Part shown: positions 16,551 to 23,257 of the stretch, one piece after another
Position numbering within the stretch: the stretch's first letter is position 1
How the letters are laid out: every line of letters starts with the position of its first letter
Assembly: GCF_008085915.1 (NCBI RefSeq)
Contig: NZ_VSJK01000026.1
Span: 1-41,808, forward strand
Direction: 5' to 3'
Length of the DNA: 41,808 nucleotides
From: Oceaniovalibus sp. ACAM 378
GTDB taxonomy: Bacteria > Pseudomonadota > Alphaproteobacteria > Rhodobacterales > Rhodobacteraceae
The notes under the pieces: generated by a model
Databases searched by the model: none
The model's input: only the letters and a program-made list of their open reading frames with translations
What the model was told of the DNA's origin: nothing
Made by a program: the position numbers and the translations under genes

Positions 16551-17177
16551 TCATTTGCGGATCTCCAGCAGCGGAATGGATGTGATCGACCCCAACCGTT
16601 CGATATCGAGGGTTACGTCGAGCACGTCGGTGTCGAAACGCACAGGGACATCAAATTCAAATCCGGCGCGGACTATGACGCCATTGCCGGGGGCGGTGGT
16701 AAAGGTGATTACGCCGGTCGTGGCATCCATCGTCCAGCCCGACATCTGCTCCGCCATGCCCAGCGCGACGCGAACCGTGCCTGCCACCGGCTTGGCAATC
16801 GTCCGCGTCCAGCTTTGCGCGCCGGAGACGTAGCGTTTCGACAGCTGGAAAATCTTCATGCTGCCGGTCCCGGTGCCAATCTGCTGGTCAATCGCGGTGA
16901 TCGCCTGCGACGGCAGGCAGGATTTGTAATCGGCCCAATCCTTGTAGCGAAACCCGTGCAGGCGACCATTCCGCGCCTCGAAGAACGCCACGACTGCTGC
17001 CAGATCGTCTGCACGGCGGATGCCATAGGCGACATCATAGCGACGACGGGAGTTCGCCCAACTGGCATTTCGTTCTTCGTCGCCCGAAGCCAACTCCACG
17101 ATCTGAGTGCGCCGCTCGGGACCGCCGCGTGCGCCGCGGCTGATAGTGTCGGGGAAACGAACCTCGTGAAATGCCAT
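16551..17177 (-). CDS. DUF2460 distal tail protein, RcGTA gp12-like
   Basis: 208 aa. The ATG at 17177 follows GGAGG at good distance and overlaps the tape-measure stop by one base. The N-terminus (MAFHEVRFPDTISRGARGGP), central RRRYDVAYGIRRADDLAAVV and GFRYKDWADYK are signatures of the DUF2460/TIGR02217 family. The C-terminal part (PVRFDTDVLDVTLDIE) is also conserved. It forms the distal tail ring joining the tail tube to the baseplate hub in RcGTA. It begins the GTA-like tail-tip block. Confidence 0.93.
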   Translation of the reverse strand: MAFHEVRFPDTISRGARGGPERRTQIVELASGDEERNASWANSRRRYDVAYGIRRADDLAAVVAFFEARNGRLHGFRYKDWADYKSCLPSQAITAIDQQIGTGTGSMKIFQLSKRYVSGAQSWTRTIAKPVAGTVRVALGMAEQMSGWTMDATTGVITFTTAPGNGVIVRAGFEFDVPVRFDTDVLDVTLDIERLGSITSIPLLEIRK

Positions 17178-19603
17178 CACATACCCCTCCGGCCCAGCGA
17201 CACGGCGCGGGCAATGTCGGCCGCAACCTGCGTGCGCGATGGTCGGAAGCTTTCGGCATCGCGGGCCATGATGGTTACATTGACGGCTGGCGCAGAGGAC
17301 TGGCCTTGGCCGTAGCCAGCCGCCTCCCGGCGCGATAGAACCCGCTCGCCGCGTTGCAGGATTGCCGGAACCTCATCCGGTTTGATCCCGGCCCAGCCGC
17401 CGGAATGCATGCGCGGTGCATTAGCAAAAGCTAGTGCTGGCACCATGCGGCCCGGTCCGGGTGATCCGACCACACCGCCCGCGTGCAGGACGTTGGCAAA
17501 GAGACCGCCTGCGCCGCCCAGCGCGCCCGAGAGCGCATTGGCAATCGGGCCAAGGATGAAGCGCCGCGCCGCCAGCTTCGCCAGATCGGCGATCATCGAG
17601 GTGACCAGGTCGCGGAAATCCAGCTTGCCGGTTTTGACAAACTCACCCACCGCGTTCTCGGCCGAGGTGAAGGCAGAGACCAGCGCATTGCCGATATCCC
17701 CGCCAATGTCGCGGGCCTTGGTGGCATAATCGGCAAGGGTGGCCACGGCGGCCTCCCATCCGGTCTTGGCCACTTCGGCGCCTGCTGCTGCGGCAGCACC
17801 CGCGCCACCGGCGGCCCGCCCAGCTTCGGTGACTGATTCATCCAGCCGGTCGGCAGCGTCTGTCGCCCCATCCAGTGCGGCTTCGCCCTCTGTGCCTGCG
17901 CCTGCAACAGCGTCTTTTAGTGCCTGCCAGCTTTGCATCGGGCGCGCGGCGGCGTCGGCCAACATGCCAGAGGCCTCGCGATACGCTTCGGCCCGGAATG
18001 TTGCCTCCTCCGCCATCCCCGTCAGGCCAAGGTCGGGCGTGGAGACATAGGTCTGCGCCATTGCGGCCGAGAAAGCTTCTGCCGCAGCGGTGCCTGCAGC
18101 AGCGGCTGATCCGGCGAAGGGATTGTCGATCCGGCCCAGAGTCAAAGGATCCAGTATGCCAATCCGCACCCCGCCTTCGCCCACAGCCCATTCCGGCAGG
18201 AGGGCGAGGGCGCCGTTCAGGGCATTGATAAAGCTGTTGATGCGGGTGACCACGCCATTCAGCATCGCCTCGACGCCGCCGATCAACCCGTTCGCTGCCT
18301 GAAACGCGAAATCGCCAATGGCAGAAGGCAACTGGCCCCAGATCGCTTTTACGGCGTCGTAAGCACCCTTGAAGATACCAGCCGTCGAATTGCCAAAGCT
18401 GGTCACAGCTTCTACCGATGACTGCATCGCGCGATAGACGATGGCCTGCAATCCGGCCCAGCTGGCCTCGATTTTCGACCAGGCAGAGGCTGCGCCCAGA
18501 CCAATGCGATCCCAAACCTCAAGCGCCAGATCCTTCAACAGGCCAATCGCTGCACCGAACCCGCCTGCGCCCGCGACCAGCCGGGTGAACTGAAACACCA
18601 ACTCGCCTGCACCGACGATCAGGGCGCCGATGCCTGTGCGGATCAATGCGCCGCGCAGGAACACAAGGCCCGTTGCAAGCCCGCGCACTGACAAGGCGGC
18701 CGCCGCGAGTCCTGCAACCCAGCGCCCAGCCATGAGGGCGGCGAAGGTCCCGGCGTAAGTCGTCAGGCGGCCGATGTTGTCGAAAAGTGCTGTGATTGCC
18801 ATGCCGATGGGGCCAGTCGCGCGCGCCATGTCTGCTAGTTTGGTGGCGATAGTCTCGAGGAATGGTGCTACGGCGACGGTCAGCCGGTTGACGAGGCCGG
18901 TCCAGATCAGGCTCAGCCGGGCAATTGCGTCGCCGGTGCGCTCGATCTGGGCGGCGTCGCTGGCGCTGACCGCGACGCCGAAATCGCGTACATCCTGCGC
19001 CGCTTCACGCAGAGTGGCGGAATCAATGCGCAGGAAGGCTAGCGCTGCCTTGTCGCCGAAGAGATCGGAGGCGACAGCCGCGCGCTCGGCTTCGGGGATA
19101 AATTGGTTCAGTGCCTCCTGGATGGCGATGATGCGTTGGTCGAGTGGCATCGCCTGCAATTGCGCCGCTGTCAGGTTCAATCGGTGCAAAGCCTCCACCG
19201 CAGATCCCGATCCGGTGGCCGCTTCCGACAGCCGCGTGGTCAGCTTCTTCGTGGCCTGTTCGATCTCGCCCATCGACACACCAGCCAGTTCCCCGGCCCA
19301 TGTCAGGGTCTGCACACTTTCCACCGTGGTCCGCATCGATTGCGCGAGTTTGGCCTGTGCGTCGACATTCGCGAGGCCCGAGCGGATCATCGCCACGCCA
19401 GCAGCGGCCGCCGCAACCGTCACAGCTGCCAAGGCAATCCCGGCCTTGCGGGCGAAGCTGGCAAGCCGGGCATTGGCTAGTTCCATCTCCGTCGACAAGC
19501 GACCGAAACCCCGCGCGCCAGCATCGCCGATACCTTCCAACTCGGCGCGCACCTGGCGGCCGCCTTCGGCGACAAGGCGGACGGAGACGCGTTTTTCAGC
19601 CAT
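17177..19603 (-). CDS. Phage tail tape measure protein
   Basis: 808 aa, AAGGAT upstream of the ATG at 19603. The N-terminal helical region (RLVAEGGRQVRAELEGIGDA) leads into long Ala-rich amphipathic helices, hydrophobic membrane-like stretches, and the lambda-type C-terminal signature (KTGKLDFRDLVTSMIADLAK, then GPIANALSGALGGAGG, HSGGWAGIKPDEVPAILQRG). It sets tail length and is thought to help DNA cross the inner membrane. It is much longer than the RcGTA tape measure, so the virion tail should be longer than a GTA tail. A vapBC pair separates it from the chaperone gene that normally sits directly upstream. Confidence 0.92.
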   Translation of the reverse strand: MAEKRVSVRLVAEGGRQVRAELEGIGDAGARGFGRLSTEMELANARLASFARKAGIALAAVTVAAAAAGVAMIRSGLANVDAQAKLAQSMRTTVESVQTLTWAGELAGVSMGEIEQATKKLTTRLSEAATGSGSAVEALHRLNLTAAQLQAMPLDQRIIAIQEALNQFIPEAERAAVASDLFGDKAALAFLRIDSATLREAAQDVRDFGVAVSASDAAQIERTGDAIARLSLIWTGLVNRLTVAVAPFLETIATKLADMARATGPIGMAITALFDNIGRLTTYAGTFAALMAGRWVAGLAAAALSVRGLATGLVFLRGALIRTGIGALIVGAGELVFQFTRLVAGAGGFGAAIGLLKDLALEVWDRIGLGAASAWSKIEASWAGLQAIVYRAMQSSVEAVTSFGNSTAGIFKGAYDAVKAIWGQLPSAIGDFAFQAANGLIGGVEAMLNGVVTRINSFINALNGALALLPEWAVGEGGVRIGILDPLTLGRIDNPFAGSAAAAGTAAAEAFSAAMAQTYVSTPDLGLTGMAEEATFRAEAYREASGMLADAAARPMQSWQALKDAVAGAGTEGEAALDGATDAADRLDESVTEAGRAAGGAGAAAAAGAEVAKTGWEAAVATLADYATKARDIGGDIGNALVSAFTSAENAVGEFVKTGKLDFRDLVTSMIADLAKLAARRFILGPIANALSGALGGAGGLFANVLHAGGVVGSPGPGRMVPALAFANAPRMHSGGWAGIKPDEVPAILQRGERVLSRREAAGYGQGQSSAPAVNVTIMARDAESFRPSRTQVAADIARAVSLGRRGM

Positions 19604-19673
19604 GGCAATGGATCCTTGAAATTCGGAGTGGAGCGTCTTACGTTTTACTTATCGATCTAGAGAGGGTATGATC

Positions 19674-19886
19674 ATGTCAGAGACAGCAACCCTGTCCACA
19701 AAGTTTCAAATCTCCATTCCCAAGGCGATCCGCTCAGCCCAAGCTTGGGAGGCAGGACTGACTTTTGCCTTCATCCCCAAGGGAACAGGTGTTTTGCTTG
19801 TGCCCGTCCCGAAGCGGGATGCGCTGAAGGGTCTCGCGCGCGGGGCAAACGTCGCAGACTATCGTGATCGAGAGGACCGCTGCTGA
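19674..19886 (+). CDS. vapB: VapB-like antitoxin, AbrB/MazE-type
   Basis: 70 aa from the ATG at 19674 (MSETATLSTKFQISIPKAIR), with GAGGG seven bases upstream; another ATG at 19668 is too close to that site. The N-terminal half is a SpoVT/AbrB swapped-hairpin DNA-binding domain (STKFQISIPKAIR). The C-terminal tail (KGLARGANVADYRDREDRC) is the flexible toxin-binding part. The stop overlaps the toxin start by one base. The pair is probably autoregulated by binding just upstream, in the 70 bases to the tape-measure start. Confidence 0.9.
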   Translation: MSETATLSTKFQISIPKAIRSAQAWEAGLTFAFIPKGTGVLLVPVPKRDALKGLARGANVADYRDREDRC

Positions 19887-20266
19887 TGGTCCTCGTCGAC
19901 ACATCGGCTTGGATTGAGTGGCTGATAGGATCCCCAACCGGGGACAAATTGACAAAGCACCTGCCGGAGCAATCTGACTGGCTTGTGCCGACGATGGTGC
20001 AGTTGGGACTGGCAAAATGGCTCACGCGTGAGGTCGGCGAAGACAAGGCCGACCAGGTGATCGCCTTCACTCAAGTTTGCCAGATCGTCCCGCTCGACAC
20101 CGAGATCGCACTTGCTGCCGCAGACGCCTGCCGCGCCCACAAACTGGCGACGGCAGATGCCATCATCTTTGCGACCGCACGCCTGCGCGGTGCTACTCTT
20201 TTGACATGCGACGCGCATTTCGACGGCCTTCCCGGTGTGACCTTGATCGCGAAAACCGGCACCTGA
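19886..20266 (+). CDS. vapC: VapC-like PIN-domain toxin with a catalytic Glu replaced
   Basis: 126 aa. PIN-domain RNase fold with Asp5 (MVLVDTSAWIEW), Asp91 (ATADAIIFAT) and Asp109 (LLTCDAHF). The second conserved acidic residue, Glu in relatives that read VQLELAKW, is Gly41 here (codon GGA at 20006-20008; one transition from GAA). PIN nucleases use this Glu for metal binding, so tRNA or rRNA cleavage may be lost or reduced. The module lies on the strand opposite the tail genes, between the tape measure and its chaperone. It could stabilise the prophage or have decayed to an antitoxin-only role. Confidence 0.9.
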   Translation: MVLVDTSAWIEWLIGSPTGDKLTKHLPEQSDWLVPTMVQLGLAKWLTREVGEDKADQVIAFTQVCQIVPLDTEIALAAADACRAHKLATADAIIFATARLRGATLLTCDAHFDGLPGVTLIAKTGT

Positions 20267-20273
20267 TCGGATC

Positions 20274-20609
20274 TCACTCTGATGGAGCGATCTGTTCGTT
20301 CAGTTTGCGCACCATCACCGCCTCGATCTCCGGCAGCAGTTCGGCGGCGATCAGGGGGTTGATCCCGAGGGCCTGTGCCAGAGCCAAGGCAGCCCCCATA
20401 TCCCAGCCCAGCACCGCGCCGGGGATCACGCGCAGCTGCCCGCCGAGGCGACCTACCAAGTCCCAGACCTGCCAGCCCTCTGGCGTTTGCGGCCGGTTCA
20501 ACCTTGTGGGGCAGTCGGGGCAGTTGCTCTCGCGGTCTTTGACGGGCGGGCAGGCCGCGCAATACCGGTCGCCCCCGCCGAAGGACCAGTCGGCGAGGGC
20601 GCGGAGACG
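20274..20609 (-). CDS. Tail assembly chaperone extension, made by -1 frameshift (GT-like)
   Basis: An open frame in -1 register that begins at the slippery site. It encodes 111 residues: first RLRALADWSFGGGDRYCAAC with a further CPDC pair (a possible zinc knuckle, CxxC-x9-CxxC), then a conserved helical part (GWQVWDLVGRLGGQLRVIPG, ALALAQALGINPLIAAELLP). A TTG at 20501 could start a free 75-aa product, but it has no clear ribosome site and would drop the Cys motif. The fusion with the upstream 115 residues would be about 226 aa. By analogy with lambda gpGT, this form recruits tail-tube subunits to the tape measure. Confidence 0.8.
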   Translation of the reverse strand, partial: RLRALADWSFGGGDRYCAACPPVKDRESNCPDCPTRLNRPQTPEGWQVWDLVGRLGGQLRVIPGAVLGWDMGAALALAQALGINPLIAAELLPEIEAVMVRKLNEQIAPSE

Positions 20610-20953
20610 TTTTTTTCCGCGTCCAGCAGCAGGCCGCGCGCGACGTATTGGGTCTGAAACGCCTCGAAGACGGGCCAGATTTCCAAGAGCGCATCGATGC
20701 CTTCAGGGCTGACTGGCACGATATTGCCTGCATCATCTCCGACACCCTCCCAATCCAGCACGGCGCGGCGGGCGACGGCTTTGGCCATAGCCAGCGCCAT
20801 TTCCTCTTGGGTGGCGTGCTCGGGCAATTCCTCAACGGCCAGATCAGCGCGGGCAGAGACCATCAGGGCGGTGGTCAGCGGGCCGACCAGCAAGCGCAGG
20901 CCGGGGGCGAGGTCCAGCCATTCGGGCGTGGCGGTCAGGTTCAGTCGGATCAT
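20498..20953 (-). CDS. Tail assembly chaperone, zero-frame product (G-like)
   Basis: 151 aa from the ATG at 20953 (MIRLNLTATPEWLDLAPGLR); the frame is open upstream into the tail-tube gene but this start fits the three-base spacing after its stop. Residues 1-115 form the conserved domain (LLVGPLTTALMVSARAD, ELPEHATQEEMALAMAKAVA, EIWPVFEAFQTQYVARGLLL). After the slippery codons the zero frame is a low-complexity Pro/Ala/Thr tail that looks non-conserved, the usual sign that the -1 frame is the functional one. It lies between tail tube and tape measure, the fixed place of G/GT chaperones in siphophages. Confidence 0.82.
   Translation of the reverse strand: MIRLNLTATPEWLDLAPGLRLLVGPLTTALMVSARADLAVEELPEHATQEEMALAMAKAVARRAVLDWEGVGDDAGNIVPVSPEGIDALLEIWPVFEAFQTQYVARGLLLDAEKNVSAPSPTGPSAGATGIARPARPSKTARATAPTAPQG
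20609..20615 (-). promoter_or_regulatory. Programmed -1 ribosomal frameshift site (A AAA AAC)
   Basis: On the minus strand the zero frame reads GAA AAA AAC, giving the canonical X XXY YYZ heptamer A AAA AAC. After slipping, the next codon CGT opens a stop-free frame to 20274. The register of both frames was checked against the start at 20953 and the TTG at 20501. The sequence just downstream is very GC-rich and could fold to stimulate slipping. Confidence 0.82.
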
Positions 20954-20955
20954 GA

Positions 20956-21894
20956 TCAATAACTCGCGATGCTGTTGATGAGGGCGGCGGTGCACATCCG
21001 CGCGGGGCTGGTGGCTTTCGCGGCCTGCCAATCGAAGCTGGCCTGCACACCCTGCGGCCCGGCGATCTCGATGCGCGGGCGCGGCAGATAGACGGCATGG
21101 GCCGTGAAGGTGAAACTCGCATTCGCCCCGAGGCTGTAATTGAACTCCAACTCGCAGGGCGTCCCGTCAATGGCTTGGGTGACCAGCGTCGCGTCGGAGA
21201 ACCGCACCTCGATCCGGCCGGTCAGCGCAGCCATGGTCGGGTCTGCCCCGTCGATGCGGCCATCACCCCTGATGGTTTCGATCCGGTCGAGGTTGTTGGA
21301 ATAGGTGATCTCGGCGGACACCACATTGCCCAAGCTGCTGCCGTTGCGCTTCACGGTGCCGTTGAAGTGACCGAAGCGTTGCAGGCCAAGAGCGGTCGGC
21401 GTTCCGGCGGCCGTTGTTGCAGCGATGGTTTCGCCTTGGGCGATCAGCTTTGCCGAGGCGGTCAAAAGGCCGGAGCGCTGCATTTGCCAGGACAGCTGAT
21501 CCAGCACGCAGCCGGAATACATCGCGAAACGCGGCACCTCGGGCATTGCCGTCTCGATCGACATGCTGGGCAGGGTCCAGTTGCCCGACTGGAAGGTGTG
21601 GGTCTTGGGCGTGGTGCCGGTGGTCGTGGGCTGGCCAAACGCCGCCTTCAGCCAATAGCCGAAGGCCTCGACATCAATGGGGATCACCACCTCGCCGTCT
21701 GATGTGACAGCATCTTTGATCGGGGCCAAAGGATCGCGGCCATAGCCTAGCAGTTCGGATTCCAGCAGCGGTTGTTCAGACCCCAGTGTTGTCCGGGCGA
21801 AGGGCATCAGCCGGAACCCAGTGACCGGCGGGGTGCCGTAAACCGTCTCATACGCAAGCGCCATCTGCGCCCGCGCGCCTTGCGCACGTGCCAT
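20956..21894 (-). CDS. Major tail tube protein
   Basis: 312 aa beta-rich protein (MARAQGARAQMALAYETVYG). The N-terminal Y-ETVYGTPPVTGFRLMPF, followed by an LESELLGYGRDP segment and a central EITYSNNLDRIETI-GDG motif, are typical of the phage tail tube family (Phage_tube_2 type). It polymerises into the tail tube around the tape measure. Its place between the tail terminator and the G/GT chaperone agrees. The length is near that of other Rhodobacterales siphophage tube proteins and clearly larger than the RcGTA tail tube. Confidence 0.88.
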   Translation of the reverse strand: MARAQGARAQMALAYETVYGTPPVTGFRLMPFARTTLGSEQPLLESELLGYGRDPLAPIKDAVTSDGEVVIPIDVEAFGYWLKAAFGQPTTTGTTPKTHTFQSGNWTLPSMSIETAMPEVPRFAMYSGCVLDQLSWQMQRSGLLTASAKLIAQGETIAATTAAGTPTALGLQRFGHFNGTVKRNGSSLGNVVSAEITYSNNLDRIETIRGDGRIDGADPTMAALTGRIEVRFSDATLVTQAIDGTPCELEFNYSLGANASFTFTAHAVYLPRPRIEIAGPQGVQASFDWQAAKATSPARMCTAALINSIASY

Positions 21895-22342: not shown

Positions 22343-22450
22343 GTCTCAGGTCGATCAGTTCATGTTGTCAGTGCCATTGGTTTCAGGCCTTTCTAATTGG
22401 ACCATTCGACGGCTAAGCTGGTAATTGTTTTTGAAAGCTTGGAGCACGAA

Positions 22451-23257
22451 ATGGGCGTTGCTAAGACCATTCGCCACGGCAACCTTGGGAAACGAACCCT
22501 GCGGTTGGCTGAGAAGGATGGCAAATTCTACGGACTCGCCGATGGAAAAATTTGCGCCGAAGGAGATGACGCGGACCGCGTTTGGCTGCAACTGCACGAC
22601 GAGGCAGGCAAATCCGACCCGCGGTACTTCGGCTACTCCGGTGCGCGAAGTCGCTTCCTAAAGTTTTTCCCTAATGGTTTTCACTCCGACGGCTACGCCA
22701 ATCAGGAAAGAAACTACAAGCTCGCGGCCAAGAATAAGCTGGAAGCTGCTGCGCCGCTTGAAGAAGCGTTGACTGGATCTGGATTTGGTGAAGCTGTGCT
22801 TTCTGTTTATCGCGCGACGAACATGCTCTCACCCTTCGAAAAGACCAAGCTACAGGAGGTCTTTCGTGGCTCGAGCGCGGATGCGGTAATCCAAGCCGCG
22901 GCAGCTTTTGCAAAAAATGCTGACAAAGCTTCGCTGGTTCGGCTGGAAAACACGCTCAAACCGTTTGATTCCGCCAAATGGACCGTCGCGACCTACCTGC
23001 CGTATCTCTGGCGTCCCGAGCAGCATATGTTCCTCAAACCGGAGGTGACAAAGGACTATGCGGCGCGTGTAGGGCATTCATTCGCTTCGATTTACGAGGC
23101 GCGCCTAAACTTTAATGTCTATGTCAGTCTTCTGGATCTCGTTGATAGAACTACCGACGAACTCAACGATTTGAAGCCGCGCGATGGCATCGACATCCAG
23201 AGTTTCATATGGGTGGTCGGCGACTATCAGGAGGACCGCGAGGACATTTACACCTGA
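22451..23257 (+). CDS. Unidentified 268-aa cargo protein, possible defence-related gene
   Basis: Start at the ATG at 22451 (MGVAKTIRHGNLGKRTLRLA), with GGAG six bases upstream; the frame is open to 22397 without a ribosome site. Lys/Arg-rich N-terminal domain with FYGLADGKICAEGDDADRVW, a middle helical segment, and a C-terminal domain with WRPEQHMFLKPEVTKDYAAR and LKPRDGIDIQSFIWVVGDYQ. I recall a similar ending (PRD-ID-QSFIWV) from poorly characterised proteins near restriction-like genes, but cannot confirm it. It runs against the late operon between the DUF6441-like and tail-terminator genes, and its last 10 bases overlap the end of the former. It is therefore an insert (moron) with its own expression. 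Confidence 0.75.
   Translation: MGVAKTIRHGNLGKRTLRLAEKDGKFYGLADGKICAEGDDADRVWLQLHDEAGKSDPRYFGYSGARSRFLKFFPNGFHSDGYANQERNYKLAAKNKLEAAAPLEEALTGSGFGEAVLSVYRATNMLSPFEKTKLQEVFRGSSADAVIQAAAAFAKNADKASLVRLENTLKPFDSAKWTVATYLPYLWRPEQHMFLKPEVTKDYAARVGHSFASIYEARLNFNVYVSLLDLVDRTTDELNDLKPRDGIDIQSFIWVVGDYQEDREDIYT

Follow-up and report, generated by a model that had tools for sequence, protein, structure and literature searches.

A minus-strand gene of the window (the whole stretch of DNA analysed, a 41.8 kb contig of a 5.36 Mb genome) is, from its sequence, very probably (about 95%) a G/GT-type tail assembly chaperone gene with a −1 frameshift, belonging to a siphophage-type prophage (Table 1). This interpretation had been put forward in a sequence-only reading of the same DNA, and it is supported by the register of the slip site, by conservation of the slippery heptamer, by selection on the −1 frame, and by gene order. 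The majority of ribosomes would stay in the zero frame and produce a 151-residue G-like protein, whereas a smaller share would move back by one base at A_AAA_AAC (20615-20609), aided by a hairpin 7 nt downstream, to give a product of ~226 residues, the first 115 from the zero frame, up to and including the heptamer's Asn codon, and the other 111 from the −1 frame. If the proteins act as in lambda, the tape measure protein would be coated by the short form, and the long form would bring the tail tube protein to it. We infer ribosomal slippage itself, the efficiency of the slip, the binding partners of the products, and metal binding by the cysteines discussed below.

Table 1. Features of the chaperone gene and its immediate neighbours in the window.
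Feature	Coordinates	Strand	Remarks
Tail tube protein (upstream neighbour)	20956..21894	-	Pfam Phage_tube_2, 4.7e-60
G-like zero-frame product, 151 aa	20498..20953	-	ATG 20953; stop TGA 20500-20498
Slippery heptamer A_AAA_AAC	20609..20615	-	Zero-frame codons GAA AAA AAC at 20617-20609
Predicted 12 bp stem-loop, 7 nt past the heptamer	20570..20601	-	Arms 20601-20590 and 20581-20570; 8 nt loop
Doubly read stretch	20501..20609	-	−1 frame of 36 codons with CxxC...CxxC, over the zero-frame Pro/Ala/Thr tail
−1 frame extension (putative T-like part)	20274..20615	-	Four-cysteine motif and DUF7697 domain; stop TGA 20276-20274
AbrB-like/VapC-like toxin-antitoxin pair	19668-20266	+	PIN PF01850, 2.4e-19; NCBIfam AbrB and VapC models below cut-offs
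Tape measure protein (downstream neighbour)	17177..19603	-	phrog_8462, 1.2e-213; Tape_meas_lam_C, 1.5e-21

The ATG at 20953, the A AAA AAC heptamer and a −1 frame open to 20274 are all present where the sequence-only reading had placed them, and translation reproduces both the low-complexity Pro/Ala/Thr tail that it described in the zero frame and the CxxC...CxxC motif in the −1 frame. The zero frame around the site is ...GCG GAA AAA AAC GTC..., with the heptamer in register for −1 slippage, and the tail that follows the slip site (VSAPSPTGPSAGATGIARPARPSKTARATAPTAPQG) is of low complexity, made up of Pro, Ala, Thr and Ser. The heptamer by itself is weak evidence, because AAAAAAC recurs elsewhere; counting any frame across the whole window there are two copies on the minus strand and three on the plus strand. 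AAG prevails among the lysine codons of 11 neighbouring genes (82 of 127), and the AAA AAA at the slip site is therefore not a mere matter of codon usage.

Related loci were found by searching viral contigs, genomes and 14 phage records with the −1 product or its relatives. The analysis covered 436 loci out of a larger number, with three of the searches contributing the best 80 of 586, the best 80 of 385 and the best 80 of 281; within the host's family there were matches in 69 of the 295 genomes searched, including its own. A profile of the −1 product was matched by 433 of the 436 loci, and 381 remain once regions of identical sequence are merged (the window's included, near-identical sequences being counted apart). 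Two of these (L202 and L434) do not cover the slip site, and the counts below use the remaining 379. Conservation of the −1 protein is partly built into this sample through the search query; neither the heptamer nor the frame relation was used to find the loci. A slippery heptamer is present at the identical codon in 378 of the 379 distinct loci listed, the window's own included, and a chance origin is excluded by this count, which we consider decisive. The predominant form is A_AAA_AAC (362 loci), followed by G_GGA_AAC (7) and A_AAA_AAA (6), with single instances of A_AAA_AAT, A_AAA_AAG and G_GGA_AAA. Within a subset of 305 loci, 258 of 260 distinct ones have the heptamer, with the codons GAA AAA AAC in 235 and GAG GGA AAC in seven. 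Of the 379 distinct loci listed, 373 have their two parts out of register in the way that calls for a −1 shift. The heptamer in relatives had been named beforehand as a test of the frameshift, and it is conserved in register.

There are departures of two types. First, L243, L355 and L370 have one extra A, which places both parts in a single frame (L046 is the L243 sequence, by contig), and L283 has one A fewer; these run-length variants could be either real or homopolymer errors. L155 contains an N and L195 has no zero-frame match. Second, L043 is the sole locus covering the site that lacks a slippery heptamer (GAAGAAAAC), and its two parts are still offset; here too the absence could be genuine or could come from an error in sequencing.

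The sequence-only reading had also suggested a prediction of RNA structure past the heptamer, and this fared less evenly; a 12 bp hairpin is predicted and is favoured by codon choice, but it is unexceptional against shuffled sequences and shows no covariation. Stem cells are paired at 97.2% in 183 distinct ungapped segments that represent 243 of 258 loci (the other 15 having no ungapped W...GG pattern, an N, or a short end), compared to 71.5% for random synonymous codons drawn with the window's usage and 67.7% when matched for GC3, and sliding the stem partners by 1 to 6 positions gives at most 58%. Synonymous versions of the window's sequence that fold at least as stably are rare (1 of 1000 and 7 of 2000). 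With dinucleotide shuffles, z is −1.25 for a 70 nt segment (22 of 200 at least as stable) and 0.12 for 151 nt. Covariation lends the stem no support: of 1000 column-wise synonymous shuffles, 201 pair at least as well as the real segments, and there are two doubly changed cells where 1.4 are expected. The case for selection on the hairpin is therefore one of codon bias alone, and this bias could also stem from the overlapping zero frame. We regard the hairpin as likely, though less secure than the heptamer.

In principle, the −1 register could arise when the transcript is made, through slippage of the polymerase on the seven consecutive A at 20616-20610, rather than by slippage of the ribosome. 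The six of 378 loci with A_AAA_AAA, which lies within runs of 7 or 8 A, would suit such a process, as would L243, L355, L370 and L283, whose A-runs differ in length by one at the DNA level. However, eight of the 378 loci have G_GGA_AAC or G_GGA_AAA, where the longest run is only 3-4 and yet the sequence suits tandem tRNA slippage, and a hairpin 7 nt downstream fits ribosomal sites, at which hairpins typically have a spacing that agrees with this. Because the G_GGA_AAC variants lack a long homopolymer we favour ribosomal slippage, and a transcriptional route seems very unlikely.

Substitution patterns in the doubly read stretch were compared between related loci that have A_AAA_AAC and a zero-frame tail of either 30 or 36 codons, taken as 98 disjoint pairs. 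Third positions of the −1 frame account for 399 of 628 substitutions (64%), and a count over all pairs gives a similar picture (third-position shares of 52% and 63% for the two classes of tail length). The synonymous share of changed codons is 0.544 for the −1 frame (299 of 550) and 0.196 for the zero frame (109 of 557), the third frame having 87 of 561; random placement of the substitutions gives 0.22. Whether the −1 frame is conserved upstream of 20501 had been a question of the sequence-only reading, and the third-position excess and the synonymous changes answer it in the affirmative; by this measure the 36 codons ahead of TTG 20501 evolve as −1-frame coding sequence. In all 257 complete loci listed the −1 product extends beyond the zero-frame stop.

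These data bear on an interpretation in which two separate proteins are made and the −1 frame is translated alone by reinitiation at TTG 20501. This is the first start codon in the −1 frame, 36 codons past the slip, and it overlaps the zero-frame stop at 20500-20498 as TTGA, an arrangement that would suit reinitiation; the records of Synechococcus phage Sc-Yong805-1 and Nostoc phage Nsp-JY21 are likewise annotated with two genes. However, the TTG is not conserved. Where the local motif is present (173 complete loci; the other 84 of the 257 lack it and are uncounted) the aligned leucine is encoded by CTG in 156, TTG in 12 and CTA or CTT in five, and 113 of the 257 complete loci listed have no ATG, GTG or TTG among the 60 codons that open the −1 frame. 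Moreover, the conserved cysteines sit upstream of TTG 20501, and the AAGG that precedes it abuts it directly, leaving no spacing. Furthermore, the zero frame stops one codon past the heptamer in 13 loci (L331, L175, L176, L170, L172, L174, L180, L321, L323, L205, L177, L377, and L218), and in these an overlap between the stop and a start at the leucine position is impossible; by the same token, the short product can do without its Pro/Ala/Thr tail. We regard separate translation from the TTG as highly improbable. A last alternative, that a sequencing error or decay of the gene has split a once continuous reading frame by an indel in the homopolymer, can draw on the error-prone run of seven A and on the three loci with one A more that read as a single frame, but it is refuted as far as the comparative data reach, the same split being present in a second copy in this genome and in 373 of the 379 distinct loci, the heptamer in 378 of 379, and purifying selection acting on both sides of the slip site.

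The families matched by the two parts are consistent with a frameshifted chaperone. For the zero-frame product there is a match to PHROG 313 'Tail assembly chaperone' (2.7e-25) and none to any family in Pfam or NCBIfam. The last part of the −1 product matches Pfam DUF7697 (PF24752; 1.9e-27), a name that we did not find in the literature searched, and the −1 product also matches phrog_11212 (9.4e-29). Two alignments that differ in part, each of 55 representatives, show no variation at four cysteines of the −1 product (C22, C25, C35, and C38), and of the 257 complete loci listed 246 have at least two CxxC motifs in the first 60 residues of this product and 11 have one. The two parts were modelled separately with AlphaFold, not as a fused protein. 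The zero-frame model (mean pLDDT 83.5) contains helices and strands and is confident to about residue 110, with low confidence past the heptamer; the −1 model (mean pLDDT 88.3, pTM 0.81) is mostly helical, with a confidence of 72-74 in the cysteine region (residues 21-40).

Foldseek searches gave no match at an E value of 0.001 or below for either part in the PDB or for the −1 part in BFVD, and sequence searches against solved structures gave nothing significant. The BFVD matches of the −1 part that are named as tape measure chaperones have E values of 0.061 or worse and stand behind two unnamed or uncharacterised matches. We note three chaperones among the matches, none of them significant: the tape measure chaperones of Enterobacter phage F20 (TM-score by query length 0.51, E 0.061, 13% identity) and Klebsiella phage Solomon (TM-score 0.62, E 0.24, 14% identity), and the chaperone of Acinetobacter phage Loki (TM-score 0.65, E 1.1, 9% identity).

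The gene is part of a minus-strand tailed-phage structural module that includes a large terminase, a major head protein, head-tail attachment functions and a tail terminator, and goes on through the tail tube, chaperone, tape measure and distal tail genes. The succession of tail tube, chaperone and tape measure is similar to the gene order in lambda. The sequence-only reading placed the gene correctly, with the tail tube on one side and the tape measure on the other, although it omitted a convergent AbrB/VapC-like pair that precedes the tape measure gene. Among 352 distinct loci listed with 700 bp of downstream sequence, the window's own included, 312 have neither a toxin- nor an antitoxin-like gene between chaperone and tape measure, 29 have both, 10 only an antitoxin-like gene, and one only a toxin-like gene; leaving out genes that overlap the chaperone, the numbers are 22, 14 and one, respectively. 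In 18 of 30 instances 2 bp separate the aligned portion of the toxin-like gene from the stop codon of the chaperone, and in seven this portion enters the chaperone gene. Cargo that recurs at precisely the same place in a tail operon may merit a study of its own. Another opposite-strand reading frame of 286 codons (22397-23257, plus strand) lies between the tail terminator and DUF6441 genes and is possibly a further cargo gene; it has no match at 0.01 in Pfam, NCBIfam or PADLOC.

The second copy in the same genome (L002, on contig C13) has a chaperone gene with 84% DNA identity to that of the window, in which the heptamer is kept and the zero-frame tail is six codons shorter. The end of this second chaperone gene overlaps the start of a MAEKRV reading frame, which is like the start of the window's tape measure gene, with no toxin-antitoxin pair between them.

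The closest described relatives are in the Rhodobacter phages RcKemmy and RcKai (RcC-type), which are homologous in both frames, with 39-41% identity in the zero-frame product and 52-53% in the −1 part. Their gene order is as in the window, and the chaperone is deposited as a two-piece CDS together with a short CDS. They differ in two respects. First, the slip site is G_GGA_AAC, whereas the window has A_AAA_AAC. Second, the tape measure CDS overlaps the end of the chaperone gene with no VapBC-like pair between, whereas the window has such a pair. Nine other Rhodobacter phage records have two chaperone features each. As described in PMC5009743, lambda G/GT resembles the window gene in that a minor −1 frameshift joins two frames of a tail chaperone gene; set against lambda, as known from the literature, the window gene differs in the four-cysteine motif that opens its −1 extension and in a zero-frame product without a Pfam match. 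The same source has A_AAA_AAC as a weaker slip site than A_AAA_AAG in E. coli (PMC5009743). Other papers describe programmed frameshifting as usual in tail assembly chaperone genes (a survey, PMC8601537), frameshifting of 7% in an HK97-related chaperone cluster (PMC3711429), and the use of joined chaperone genes as training data (PMC10885494). The principle of the G/GT-type frameshift is long established, and because RcKemmy and RcKai already carry the homologue as a two-piece CDS, the window gene is an ordinary further example of it.

The four cysteines suggest a further and rather speculative role for the slipped product. In this lineage, which is mostly alphaproteobacterial, the frameshift may add a four-cysteine and probably zinc-binding knuckle to the slipped product only, such that metal or redox conditions could tune recruitment of the tube and assembly of the tail; we consider this possible but unlikely. 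Two other consequences do not involve metal binding. DUF7697 is listed as a domain of unknown function, and the data indicate that in these loci it makes up the distal portion of a tail chaperone whose gene is read with a frameshift. In addition, an automatic annotation that begins at TTG 20501 or later drops the conserved cysteine motif.
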